From positions 1 through 64,000 of the forward strand of contig JAFVFL010000007.1 in NCBI GenBank assembly GCA_017475555.1: a stretch of 64,000 bases of DNA. The letters are read 5' to 3'. The stretch's first letter is position 1, and each line of letters begins with the position of its first letter. This DNA comes from Ruminococcus sp. (GTDB taxonomy: Bacteria; Bacillota; Clostridia; Oscillospirales; Ruminococcaceae). A program made the translations under genes and the position numbers. This document shows positions 57,921 through 63,732 of this stretch, piece by piece. The notes below the pieces were generated by a model that was given only the letters and a program-made list of their open reading frames with translations, had not been told where the DNA came from and did not search any database.

Positions 57921-59195
57921 TTAATATCCGAGATCCTTCATCTTCTTCTTGAAGTCCGAGTTGACCTTTGCGACCTTCTTCTTATCCTTCGCCTGCTTCA
58001 TCAGCTCGTCCATAGACGGAGTACCTGAGGACGGTGTGAAGCCGCTATCTCCGTCATCACCATCGCTCATAAAGGTGTTGAGCCGCTTTTTGAAGGCAGA
58101 TGTGCCGCCGCTTGTCATGTTAGATGAAGCAATACCCTGACGGTTCTGATACCTGCTTGTAACGTTCGGCTGCGGAACAGGCATCGCTCCCTGTGTAACG
58201 TGGATCGAACGGTTCTGCTGACCCGCTGCTGCCGGATTTGCCGTGCTGTAGGGATCATTCTGCTGATAGCCGCCATTCATGGGATAGCCCTGCTGCTGCG
58301 GGTAGCCGTTCATCGGGTAGCCCTGCTGCTGCGGGTAGCCGCCGTTCATCGGATAGCCCTGCTGCTGCGGATAACCGCCGTTCATCGGGTAGCCCTGCTG
58401 CTGCGGATAGCCACCGTTCATCGGATAGCCCTGCTGCTGCGGATAACCGCCGTTCATCGGGTAGCCCTGCTGCTGCGGATAGCCACCGTTCATCGGGTAG
58501 CCCTGCTGCTGTGCATAGGGATTCTGGAAGCCCGCTGCACCTGCCCTCTGAGCGTCTGACGGCTGCTCATAAAGAGCCTTCGGCGGCTCGGCAGCTGTAC
58601 CTCCGGTAAAGAAGCCCGGGTCAGCCGATGCAGCCGGTGCATCATAGAACGGGTTGCTCTCGTCCGGATCTGCACTTGCCGCAAATTCAGCCGGTCTGCC
58701 AAATGCAGGTACCGCATTCAGCTCGCTCGTCTCATCATCGAAATCGCTGAGGAAATCCGGAGTTTCCGGCTTTATCTCCTCATGAACAGGCTCCTGACGG
58801 CTTGCCCTGCCCATTCTCAGAGCCTCGGCAGTCGTGAAGCTGTCCGGCGAGGTAACGATCTGACAGCTGCTGTTTGCCGCACTCGCACGATAAAGCAGTG
58901 ATATACAGCTATCGCAGGGGGTGCAGACACGGTAATCCGCAAACGATATGGTTATCATCTGCTTTGCATTCACCTGATTTGCCACGATCATCGACATTAT
59001 CGCATTAGTCTCAGAGCACACAGTCTCAACGCTCTCGCCGATAACACGTACTCCTGTAACTCCCGAAAATATCTCGTCCTTATCTGTTATGATAAGGCAC
59101 AGTGACGTCCCCGGGTCAGCAGCCGCATTCGGACGCTCCTGCTTTACCTTGTCGGCAAGCATCTTTGAAGCATTGTAAAGTACATTTATATCCAT
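57921..59195 (-). CDS. Cytidine-deaminase-like protein with 12-residue repeat tail
   Basis: 424 residues. The first ~130 residues carry the deaminase zinc motifs: CSETNAI (Cys-x-Glu) and RVCTPCDSC (PCxxC), with the GVTGVRVIGESVETVCS fold. A disordered linker (~130-225) follows, then seven copies of a 12-residue unit of the type GYPMNGGYPQQQ (~226-310), and a basic C-terminal ~95 residues ending MDELMKQAKDKKKVAKVNSDFKKKMKDLGY. It may be a nucleotide or RNA deaminase, or a catalytically intact sensor. Last gene of the kinase/VWA/PP2C/GGDEF operon. Substrate unknown. Confidence 0.8.
   Translation of the reverse strand: MDINVLYNASKMLADKVKQERPNAAADPGTSLCLIITDKDEIFSGVTGVRVIGESVETVCSETNAIMSMIVANQVNAKQMITISFADYRVCTPCDSCISLLYRASAANSSCQIVTSPDSFTTAEALRMGRASRQEPVHEEIKPETPDFLSDFDDETSELNAVPAFGRPAEFAASADPDESNPFYDAPAASADPGFFTGGTAAEPPKALYEQPSDAQRAGAAGFQNPYAQQQGYPMNGGYPQQQGYPMNGGYPQQQGYPMNGGYPQQQGYPMNGGYPQQQGYPMNGGYPQQQGYPMNGYPQQQGYPMNGGYQQNDPYSTANPAAAGQQNRSIHVTQGAMPVPQPNVTSRYQNRQGIASSNMTSGGTSAFKKRLNTFMSDGDDGDSGFTPSSGTPSMDELMKQAKDKKKVAKVNSDFKKKMKDLGY
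58261..58513. repeat. 36-bp tandem repeat, seven copies (coding)
   Basis: Seven in-frame 36-bp units (one shortened to 33 bp) encoding the GYPMNGGYPQQQ motif. No spacers, so not CRISPR. The count could vary between strains by slippage. Confidence 0.9.
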
Positions 59196-59235
59196 ATTAG
59201 CTCACGCTCTCCTTTCGCTTTGCTGCGGCAGAAGC

Positions 59236-60279
59236 TCACTGTGCCCTTCTGTAGAAGCAGAGCTGGTTCTTGCCGCCGGTCTTGGCGGTGAACATTGCAG
59301 TCTCAGCACATCTGAACAGATCCTCTGCACTTCTTGCATCTGCCGGGAAAGCAGCAACGCCGTAGCTTGCATTTACTGAGAAGCTGTCGCCCCTCACATC
59401 AACAGGTCTTGCGAATACACCGCTTATCCTTGCAGAAAACTCTACAACATCGTCATTTGACATATTTCCCGGGAGAATGAGTCCGAACTCGTCTCCGCCT
59501 ATCCTTGCAGCAAAGATATCATCGCCGCAGAGCTTCTCGATCTGAGCGGAATACTCCTTGAGCAGCTCATCACCTGTGCTGTGTCCGAAATTATCGTTTA
59601 TACGCCTGAAATCGTCGATATCTATGTAGATAACTATGCAGTCATCTCCGCTGCCGATATTCTCCTCAAGGTTCTCCATGAAGAGCTGTCTGTTAGGCAT
59701 CTGTGTGAGCCTGTCGTAGTAAGCAAGGTACTGGAGAACATCGTCCTTCTCCTGAATAACACGGTTCTTCTCGATAGCCTCCTGATAGCTTGCGGAAAGC
59801 TCCTCGTGCATCTTGTCATTTCTGCTGAGGAACAGGTAGATAAGACCGGAAATGAGTATCGAAACGAGCGGAACGACACCGCCGGGAGCTGCTGACATAT
59901 TCTTTGTAGCGAAAACTGCACCGAATGCGAGGAAGGAGTTGAGCAGGTTCAGAATGATAGCAGCGATATATCCTCTCTTTCTGTTGGTGAGAACGAGCAC
60001 AACAGAGATGAGAACGTGGAACTGACCGATAATACCGTTGAGCGAGGAGCTTCCAGCCTTCTCAAGTCCCTCGATAGGGCCGTTTACAGCCTGTGCTCTG
60101 CCGGCTGGGATATTGAACTCATTGACAATGCCGTTGAAGCCGTCCTTGAGTGCATCAAGAGTCTCATTCTTGATAACGTTTCCGTTGGTAAGTATGCGCT
60201 GTACGACAACAAGTGCGATAAACAGCACGATACAGATGATAAGTGCGGGCAGATTACCCTTTTTTTCCTTTTTTTCCAT
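59236..60279 (-). CDS. Membrane GGDEF diguanylate cyclase
   Basis: 347 residues from the ATG at 60279. About four N-terminal TM helices (~10-150), a coiled-coil linker, then the GGDEF domain with active site RIGGDEFGL (~285), LTQMPNRQLFMENLEENI and DIDDFRRINDNFGHSTGDELL. The catalytic residues are intact. No clear RxxD inhibition site at the usual distance. It makes c-di-GMP at the membrane. TGGAG lies before the used start, and an upstream in-frame ATG (60291) is not favoured. Two genes away lies the PP2C/VWA/kinase triad. Confidence 0.92.
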   Translation of the reverse strand: MEKKEKKGNLPALIICIVLFIALVVVQRILTNGNVIKNETLDALKDGFNGIVNEFNIPAGRAQAVNGPIEGLEKAGSSSLNGIIGQFHVLISVVLVLTNRKRGYIAAIILNLLNSFLAFGAVFATKNMSAAPGGVVPLVSILISGLIYLFLSRNDKMHEELSASYQEAIEKNRVIQEKDDVLQYLAYYDRLTQMPNRQLFMENLEENIGSGDDCIVIYIDIDDFRRINDNFGHSTGDELLKEYSAQIEKLCGDDIFAARIGGDEFGLILPGNMSNDDVVEFSARISGVFARPVDVRGDSFSVNASYGVAAFPADARSAEDLFRCAETAMFTAKTGGKNQLCFYRRAQ

Positions 60280-62296: not shown

Positions 62297-62382
62297 AAGC
62301 TGCTTTTCTCCCTTTCTCTTATAAGATTTGAAGAATATTGAAGAATAATTGTAAACTAATCCATTTTTCAGGCTTCGGGCAT

Positions 62383-63732
62383 TTATTCAATGCTTGCCTG
62401 TACCGCACCGAAATCGACTTCAAGTCCCTTCCAGATAGGGAAACCCTTTCCGGGTGCGATATCGTAGAACTTTCCGTCCGGCATCTTTGCCTTCCATGTC
62501 ATGATGGAGGTGTTCTTTATGCCGAGGACTCCGGGCTTGAGCTTGTTCTCAACAAGCTGACCTGCAACGGACTCAAAATTATCCGACTCAGGATTTATCT
62601 CGCAGTCGAAGAACTGACAGCCGAGGTAAAGCGGCATACGCCAGCTTCTGTTGCTGAAGCTGAGGGTCGCAATTTCCATGCCGCACTTGGGGCATTTATA
62701 TGTCTTTTCGTCGATAAGCTCGAACATTGAGGCGAAATTCGTCCTGCCGCAGCCGCCGCACATGATTATCTCAGACCTGAGGCGTATGAACAGCTTCTGC
62801 CAGTCGTTATCTATCATCCGCTTGTTCGGCTCTCTGATACCGACAGTGAACGAGAGAGTAAATGCGTCTCTTATGTAGTCCGGATATATCCTCCAGAACT
62901 TGATTACATTGTCGTGTATGCCCCTTACCGGGCGGTTGGACTTGTCGTCCGGGTCGTATACGAATACAGCGTTCTGCCCGTAGTGCTTCAGCTCAGAGGC
63001 TTCCGTAAGGCAGATATCCTTCACGACCTTCTCGCCCTCCATAGGGTCGCCCCTGAAAAGGAGCTTGAAAAGGACTACCGCAAGCGAATATTTATCGGTC
63101 TGCACATTCGGCTTTGCTATGCCCCTTACGACCTCAGGAGCCATATATCCCGGCTTTCCGCCGATGCCGAAGTTGCTGCCGTCCGGAGCGATATTGTCAC
63201 AGTCACAGACAAGAATATCTCCGGTATCGACATTGATGAAGAAGCCTCCGTCGTTAAGGTCCTGGTAACTCTTTCCGGCACGGTGCAGCTGACGGAAGGC
63301 ATTGACTATGTTTATGACAGCCGTCACCATTGAGAACAGGCTTGTGAAGCGTACAGGCTTCTTTACAGCGTGTCCGGTAAGGTCGTCGATCTCAAGCTTG
63401 TACGTGTTGAGGATATCCACGAACGAATCGTAGCCCTCCGGTCTGAGATCCATGATATAGCCGAACGTACCCTCTGCATTCTCCTTTGTAAGATACTTCG
63501 GCCAGAGGAACTTATCGCTCGGCGGTCCGTCGTTGATGTTCTGCTGTATATTCTTCCGGAACGCCTTTGGATTGCGTATCTTGTCCACATCATACCATTT
63601 CAGTGCCCACTTCAGTCCGTTGAGCTCGACAAGGTAGACTATACCCTGTCCGCCGCTGCCGATGATACTGAGGACCTTAGCACGGCCGCCGAATTCCATT
63701 TCGACTTCCTGACCTATCTTCAGCTCTATCAT
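62383..63732 (-). CDS. Ser/Thr-type protein kinase with C-terminal zinc ribbon
   Basis: 449 residues. Gly-rich loop GSGGQGIVYLV, the VAIK-equivalent Lys in WALKWYD, a catalytic loop YQDLNDGGFFI that keeps Asp and Asn but lacks the usual HRD, a metal-binding loop CDCDN in place of DFG, and an APE-like GYMAPEV. Zinc ribbon at ~335-365: CGGCG..CPKCG, then a C-terminal ~80-residue beta domain. First gene of the operon, with AAAGGATG upstream. It phosphorylates a partner in the TerY-P style module; HRD loss is common in this divergent class. Confidence 0.88.
   Translation of the reverse strand: MIELKIGQEVEMEFGGRAKVLSIIGSGGQGIVYLVELNGLKWALKWYDVDKIRNPKAFRKNIQQNINDGPPSDKFLWPKYLTKENAEGTFGYIMDLRPEGYDSFVDILNTYKLEIDDLTGHAVKKPVRFTSLFSMVTAVINIVNAFRQLHRAGKSYQDLNDGGFFINVDTGDILVCDCDNIAPDGSNFGIGGKPGYMAPEVVRGIAKPNVQTDKYSLAVVLFKLLFRGDPMEGEKVVKDICLTEASELKHYGQNAVFVYDPDDKSNRPVRGIHDNVIKFWRIYPDYIRDAFTLSFTVGIREPNKRMIDNDWQKLFIRLRSEIIMCGGCGRTNFASMFELIDEKTYKCPKCGMEIATLSFSNRSWRMPLYLGCQFFDCEINPESDNFESVAGQLVENKLKPGVLGIKNTSIMTWKAKMPDGKFYDIAPGKGFPIWKGLEVDFGAVQASIE

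Follow-up and report, generated by a model that had tools for sequence, protein, structure and literature searches.

The window analysed here, the whole 64,000-nt stretch at positions 1 to 64,000 of Ruminococcus sp. contig JAFVFL010000007.1, carries near its end a reverse-strand gene cluster in which a TerY-P-type signalling triad is joined by two further genes, one for a GGDEF protein and one for a deaminase-like protein. In the direction of transcription, the cluster comprises a protein-kinase-family gene (62383..63732), whose product has a kinase domain, a C-terminal four-Cys zinc ribbon and a C-terminal beta-rich domain; a TerY-like von Willebrand factor type A (VWA) gene (61400..62296), encoding the residues of a metal-ion-dependent adhesion site (MIDAS) and the C-terminal sequence ...FDTGW; a PP2C phosphatase gene with a GTG start (60364..61362); a GGDEF gene (59236..60291) with predicted N-terminal transmembrane segments; and a deaminase-like gene (57921..59195) encoding an N-terminal domain of cytidine deaminase (CDA) fold (~130 aa) and a tail rich in Gln, Gly, Pro and Tyr. 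All are on the (−) strand, at the positions given in the initial annotation, which was made by a model from the letters and a list of open reading frames (ORFs) with their translations; the gaps between them are, in order, 86, 37, 72 and 40 bp. That annotation treated the cluster as a five-gene unit; the five genes stand as described, but the unit starts with a sixth, gene 0 (63821..64000 in the window and on to contig position 64963, (−) strand), which runs past the window end and lies 88 bp upstream of the kinase gene. Gene 0 encodes a zinc ribbon (Zn_Ribbon_1, 25.3 bits), a helical region and BspA-type leucine-rich repeats (LRRs; LRR_5, 119.1 bits). A promoter-like site (11/12 matches, TG ahead of the −10) is present above gene 0, and a terminator-like hairpin 3′ of the deaminase-like gene (57844..57879, (−) strand, 14 pairs, T-rich tail) closes the unit.

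The gene order is recurrent. When 148 genomes of the family were searched for the kinase, 32, own genome counted, gave a match and 10 besides our own had a relative at 65 % identity or more; a scan of species genomes returned 260 relatives. The best 80 of these 260 were used (65 named Ruminococcus, i.e. 23 R. flavefaciens, 1 R. albus and 41 others, and 15 not so named), and with nine further loci (L040–L048) and our own they made up a set of 90, reduced to 89 by leaving out L090, a second contig of the metagenome-assembled genome that holds L089. The order LRR-kinase-VWA-PP2C-deaminase-like recurs across these 89 related loci: the LRR gene lies less than 400 bp upstream of the kinase gene on the same strand in all 89, the PP2C gene is found downstream in 79 of the 82 loci with more than 2.5 kb of downstream sequence (missing from the operon in 3/82) and the deaminase-like gene in all 76 loci with more than 4.5 kb. 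The latter gene is on the same strand in 75 loci; in L048 it lies on the opposite strand, together with two GGDEF genes. A GGDEF gene stands ahead of the deaminase-like gene in 21/83 loci (L090 excluded), and we therefore regard it as an optional member. Median gaps were, in order, 31, 73 and 40 bp, followed by 38.5 bp from PP2C to GGDEF (n=16) and 69 bp from GGDEF to deaminase-like (n=21). The association of the triad with GGDEF and deaminase-like genes, put forward in the initial annotation with the proviso that it might prove no more frequent than chance, is thus real and recurrent, and the cluster is conserved in gut Ruminococcus, in an order that exceeds chance. A protein-database search with the kinase returned 3509 matches, of which 120 were listed, and we read it as no more than an indication of breadth.

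The kinase, VWA and PP2C products all score over their Pfam cut-offs (Pkinase 40.4 bits, VWA 39.5 bits, PP2C_2 115.4 bits), and the AlphaFold2 model of the kinase (mean predicted local distance difference test score, pLDDT, 82.9) has a kinase fold in a PDB structure search. The kinase Lys, catalytic Asp and DFG-type Asp and the four zinc-ribbon Cys (CxxC...CxxC) are invariant in 89/89 loci, the VWA MIDAS keeps DxSxS and its Thr in 88/88 and its last Asp in 86/86 readable sequences, and the PP2C residues checked show no variation in any readable row (80–81 of 81). A passage of PMC11090510 defines the TerY-P triad as a VWA protein, a PP2C and a Ser/Thr kinase with a C-terminal zinc ribbon. The three parts are adjacent here, in the order and with the zinc ribbon and intact MIDAS that the initial annotation reported, and its assignment of a TerY-P-type triad is borne out; the VWA protein is called TerY-like on its Pfam VWA match and MIDAS residues. 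The cluster differs from known triads in its extra LRR/zinc-ribbon gene, its deaminase-like gene and its optional GGDEF gene, and in that its genome gave no TerD match. Kinase/PP2C/VWA sets of the GAP1-N2-type conflict systems share the kinase layout, with zinc ribbon and beta-rich domain, and the partners, but a passage of PMC7159879 describes them as confined to actinobacteria and associated with GTPase-centred systems. The genome of the window has a second kinase-VWA-PP2C triad, a distant one (G000:C18:117921-121069; L055:8922-12070), with 35 %, 31 % and 28 % identity; the 19 kb around it yielded no relative of the GGDEF or deaminase-like genes. A 386-aa protein without a Pfam match adjoins this triad, and the helical region of gene 0 gave two weak matches (E 2e-4 and 7e-4) to proteins beside distant triads.

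The VWA C-terminus reads D[TSIA]GW in 82/88 loci. Three of the other six sequences are cut by contig ends, and the remaining three (L068, L070 and L072) come from the loci without an operon PP2C gene, in which 18 bp separate the VWA gene from the GGDEF gene that comes next. The genomes of these three loci each possess a second triad (L206, L207 and L208) with a DTGW-bearing VWA next to PP2C; by eye, the kinases of these second triads look like pseudokinases, with glycine loop, catalytic Asp and DFG-type Asp all missing. As DTGW is lost exactly where the operon PP2C is lost and is kept in the second triads, the pattern hints that the VWA tail may work together with PP2C. Apparent PP2C-GGDEF fusions in L043, L068, L070 and L072 were rejected on inspection.

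The operon GGDEF protein is a predicted membrane diguanylate cyclase, i.e. a synthase of cyclic di-GMP (c-di-GMP): its GGDEF domain scores 125.1 bits, over the Pfam cut-off, the motif is intact in the translation, and the transmembrane segments that the initial annotation had also called were predicted by reading the N-terminal sequence. No RxxD inhibitory site was seen by eye before the motif. The domain and motif resemble those of other membrane diguanylate cyclases, whereas the N-terminal part has no Pfam match over cut-off and the subfamily is one that recurs at this locus. The in-operon GGDEF genes form one subfamily, their products being 30–58 % identical to that of the window, as against 22–36 % over the matched part for the other GGDEF proteins of the same genome. 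The motif is GGDE[FY] in 15/20 single-copy loci and SGDEF, TGDEF or ASDEF in the remainder. The genome holds 17 GGDEF genes in 2.5 Mb, such that a random slot would hold one in less than 1 % of cases (~1 gene/kb assumed), and a binomial estimate gives a very low probability that GGDEF genes fill this slot so often by chance, although it treats the loci as independent, which they are not.

The GGDEF gene could nevertheless be a passenger unlinked to the triad, having settled ahead of the deaminase-like gene as a mobile or duplicating element. Its patchy presence, which needs at least five changes on the tree (three on supported branches), would fit this, as would L046, in which seven tandem GGDEF genes, none with a canonical motif, lie between the PP2C and deaminase-like genes (L046:11978-18736). 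We consider it unlikely, given that a single subfamily occupies the same slot and strand in several lineages with short gaps and a mostly intact motif, that the gene stayed where PP2C was lost, and that a GGDEF gene of another type lies directly 3′ of a second family of tailed deaminase-like genes (see below).

The deaminase-like protein scores low against deaminase families by sequence. The whole protein scores 22.7 bits against dCMP_cyt_deam_1, under the cut-off of 25, and its N-terminal domain alone 25.5 bits; PF00383 is matched by 15/69 domains at E 0.1, a protein-database search with the domain returned one protein only, and a search of the alignment against the PDB by sequence gave two weak matches, both unrelated and set aside. 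The AlphaFold2 model of the domain (pLDDT 93.4) has the CDA fold, as all 50 PDB matches listed by Foldseek are cytidine and blasticidin S deaminases (probability 1.00, query TM 0.49–0.64 among these 50). The window protein shares with these enzymes its modelled fold and intact zinc/glutamate residues (CSE...PCDSC), but departs from cytidine deaminases in its low sequence score, its long low-complexity tail and the fate of the residues in its relatives. Both the likeness to cytidine deaminase and the repetitive tail were noted in the initial annotation. The residues are kept in only 17/81 relatives (window included) and lost in 64/81 (84 rows minus the duplicate L090 and L046 and L062, in which the sequence ends inside the gene), which argues against the nucleotide-modifying effector envisaged there as a shared role. 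The protein might still be an enzyme wherever the residues are kept, own genome included, within a cluster that controls pyrimidine or guanine salvage, with loss elsewhere reflecting relaxation; the intact members of the operon family and of the second family lend this some support. We find it rather improbable, since the window protein falls far under the curated cytidine deaminase cut-off (TIGR01354: 19.9 vs 113.65 bits) and the tail motifs and gene linkage persist where the residues are lost.

The 79 tails have a composition of Q 14.6 %, G 12.2 %, P 10.6 % and Y 6.4 %. Five patterns were tried in a first test. NPF-type motifs occur in 68/79 tails (shuffled mean 1.8) and KKxAK in 74/79 (0.4); the QP type occurs in only 33 (11.6), and [SA]xY does no better than shuffled sequence (75 vs 70.8 of 79). 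A further motif, [FLY][KRQ]x[RK][LVF]xx[FLM], is found in 62/79 tails (shuffled mean 0.3). With the residues lost in most relatives, the tail motifs kept and the examined kinase, VWA and PP2C residues invariant, the conserved function seems to reside in the tail, and perhaps the fold, rather than in catalysis. Such a tail could alternatively be a phase-separating or polymerising element, the phospho-switch serving to build an assembly and c-di-GMP being incidental. The composition itself is compatible with this, as is a passage in PMC7159879 that links kinase-ZnR-beta/PP2C/VWA sets to regulated complex assembly; the tails of L044 and L045 are without repeat, however, and an assembly would leave two separate GGDEF pairings unexplained, making it a quite unlikely account.

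The second pairing involves another tailed deaminase-like family, which we refer to as CDA2. In eight loci, a further tailed deaminase-like gene lies close to the operon with a GGDEF gene as its neighbour (L099, L105, L108, L117, L118, L119, L122 and L128), and one such pair scores 29.3 bits for PF00383, 59.1 for GGDEF and 31.5 for dCache_1 (short of the cut-off, 45). CDA2 matches were obtained in 38 of 297 family genomes searched; a search of our own genome returned the operon gene only, indicating that the family is absent from it. We inspected the neighbourhoods of the 14 best-scoring matches and two operon loci (L184 and L122 being one genome counted twice). In 13 of these 14 matches (L184–L196), a Cache-GGDEF gene comes immediately after the CDA2 gene, and the same 13 keep HAE...PCxxC; the fourteenth, L197, has neither. 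The motif of the 13 Cache-GGDEF partners is GSDEF in eight and NGNEY in L185, and was not found by pattern in the other four. The tail motif [FLY][KRQ]x[RK][LVF]xx[FLM] recurs in 17/21 CDA2 tails (shuffled mean 0.08). Tailed deaminase-like proteins therefore pair with GGDEF genes in two separate families.

The surroundings of the operon are also conserved. Upstream and divergent lie a periplasmic-binding-protein gene and a 4HB-GGDEF gene with the degenerate motif TGNEF (contig 65323-67645; L009:10324-12646). Both are present upstream, adjoining the operon or a few kb off, in 62/71 loci with more than 7.5 kb of sequence there (7.5–10 kb stretch), and the motif reads NITGNEF in 50/67 frames so labelled, one of them Cache-GGDEF. 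Genes farther upstream of gene 0 are, by eye, presumably proB and proA. On the other side, convergent with the cluster, a small gene (57286..57822, (+) strand) encodes a protein with a predicted membrane segment and no Pfam family over cut-off; relatives occur downstream in 58/70 loci with more than 8 kb, on either strand. No restriction or nuclease family appeared in Pfam scans of the neighbours, which covered part of their ORFs, and Rfam gave no match in 19.9 kb around the cluster.

These data bear on whether the cluster is a stress or anti-phage TerY-P system, as the initial annotation had suggested, in which the triad would sense damage or infection and the deaminase-like protein would act as a nucleotide-modifying effector. 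All three TerY-P parts are present, passages in PMC11090510 and PMC4978471 connect triads of this kind with tellurite resistance and with restriction-type systems, and PADLOC matched the kinase to PD-T4-6 (2.8e-12) and mad6 (9.5e-11), weakly and over only part of the kinase domain. PADLOC had no match for the VWA, PP2C, GGDEF or deaminase-like proteins, however, and TerD had none in the genome (the control was positive in 2/14; TerD was the one ter family searched). Taken with the conserved neighbours and the loss of deaminase residues in most relatives, this makes a stress or anti-phage role very unlikely. Since the three TerY-P parts are present without TerD, we call the triad TerY-P-type and class the complete cluster as a core-genome signalling operon; since the cluster is conserved and most relatives have lost the deaminase residues, it is likely a core signalling circuit rather than a phage-defence weapon.

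We tentatively propose, with a probability of roughly 40 %, that the cluster is a conserved TerY-P-type phospho-switch acting via a deaminase-fold scaffold, which is predicted to dock to the GGDEF protein and gate its c-di-GMP synthesis. The LRR/zinc-ribbon protein would be a sensor or adaptor. The kinase and PP2C would reversibly set the phosphorylation of the VWA protein and/or the tailed deaminase-like protein, and the VWA protein would grip an acidic peptide of the tail via its MIDAS while recruiting PP2C via the C-terminal ...DTGW. The tail motif [FLY][KRQ]x[RK][LVF]xx[FLM] would dock to the membrane GGDEF protein, and c-di-GMP would change locally as the output, perhaps in connection with the adjacent binding protein and its degenerate GGDEF partner. 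In operons without a GGDEF gene, the scaffold would have as its target either a GGDEF protein encoded at another site or something else.

Several observations weigh against this proposal. The residue five positions after the kinase catalytic Asp, where Asn is usual and has a functional role, is Gly in 89/89 operon kinases and Asn in the distant triads L051–L055, leaving kinase activity less than certain. With a GGDEF gene in only 21/83 loci, c-di-GMP is not an obligatory output at this place, and the altered motifs of the seven L046 copies and of the eight GSDEF Cache-GGDEF partners imply that some partners may not be cyclases. The genome has six EAL matches and no PilZ match, and a c-di-GMP-I riboswitch search of it found none, a result that carries no conclusion because the control was silent too. 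The tail motifs were picked visually from the related sequences on which they were then tested, and a few of these sequences are incomplete or contain unread bases. Kept deaminase residues coincide with an in-operon GGDEF gene (10/21 vs 7/63, Fisher p 0.0009; 84 rows including L046, L062 and L090), but this tie is unproven, as the tree, with three supported independent pairs, does not bear it out. Finally, gene 0 and the kinase gene are separated by a small hairpin whose T tail is poor (window 63815-63797), and weak promoter-like matches occur inside genes of the cluster, for which reasons a single transcript is likely and no more; the earlier statement that no terminator separates the genes was nearly right, this small hairpin being the exception.

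The triad type is already known; what is new is its combination with a deaminase-like scaffold and an optional membrane GGDEF partner. Our literature searches found no paper joining Ruminococcus, GGDEF, von Willebrand factor and protein kinase, and none on a gene neighbourhood of cytidine deaminase and diguanylate cyclase; papers naming both cytidine deaminase and GGDEF do not, by their titles and abstract openings, concern this pairing, and PMC9540692 treats autoinducer-2 receptors in rumen microbes and is unrelated to this cluster. Beyond the proposed phospho-switch, and as a highly speculative extension, tailed deaminase-fold proteins might form a new class of GGDEF partner whose fold would bind the guanine nucleotide made by the neighbour and, where the site is intact, deaminate it, so that the family would read or edit c-di-GMP, decayed members being pure receptors wired to the TerY-P phospho-switch.

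Passages in PMC4978471 and PMC11090510 treat TerY-P triads as stress or defence modules, whereas in gut Ruminococcus such a triad appears to be part of a stable operon for signalling. In a genome without a PilZ match, the repeated pairing of tailed deaminase-like and GGDEF genes offers a concrete candidate link between Ser/Thr phosphorylation and c-di-GMP signalling. Gut Ruminococcus are fibre degraders, and our guess at the physiological output of the circuit is surface behaviour on plant fibre linked to c-di-GMP, which would suit the life of these hosts.

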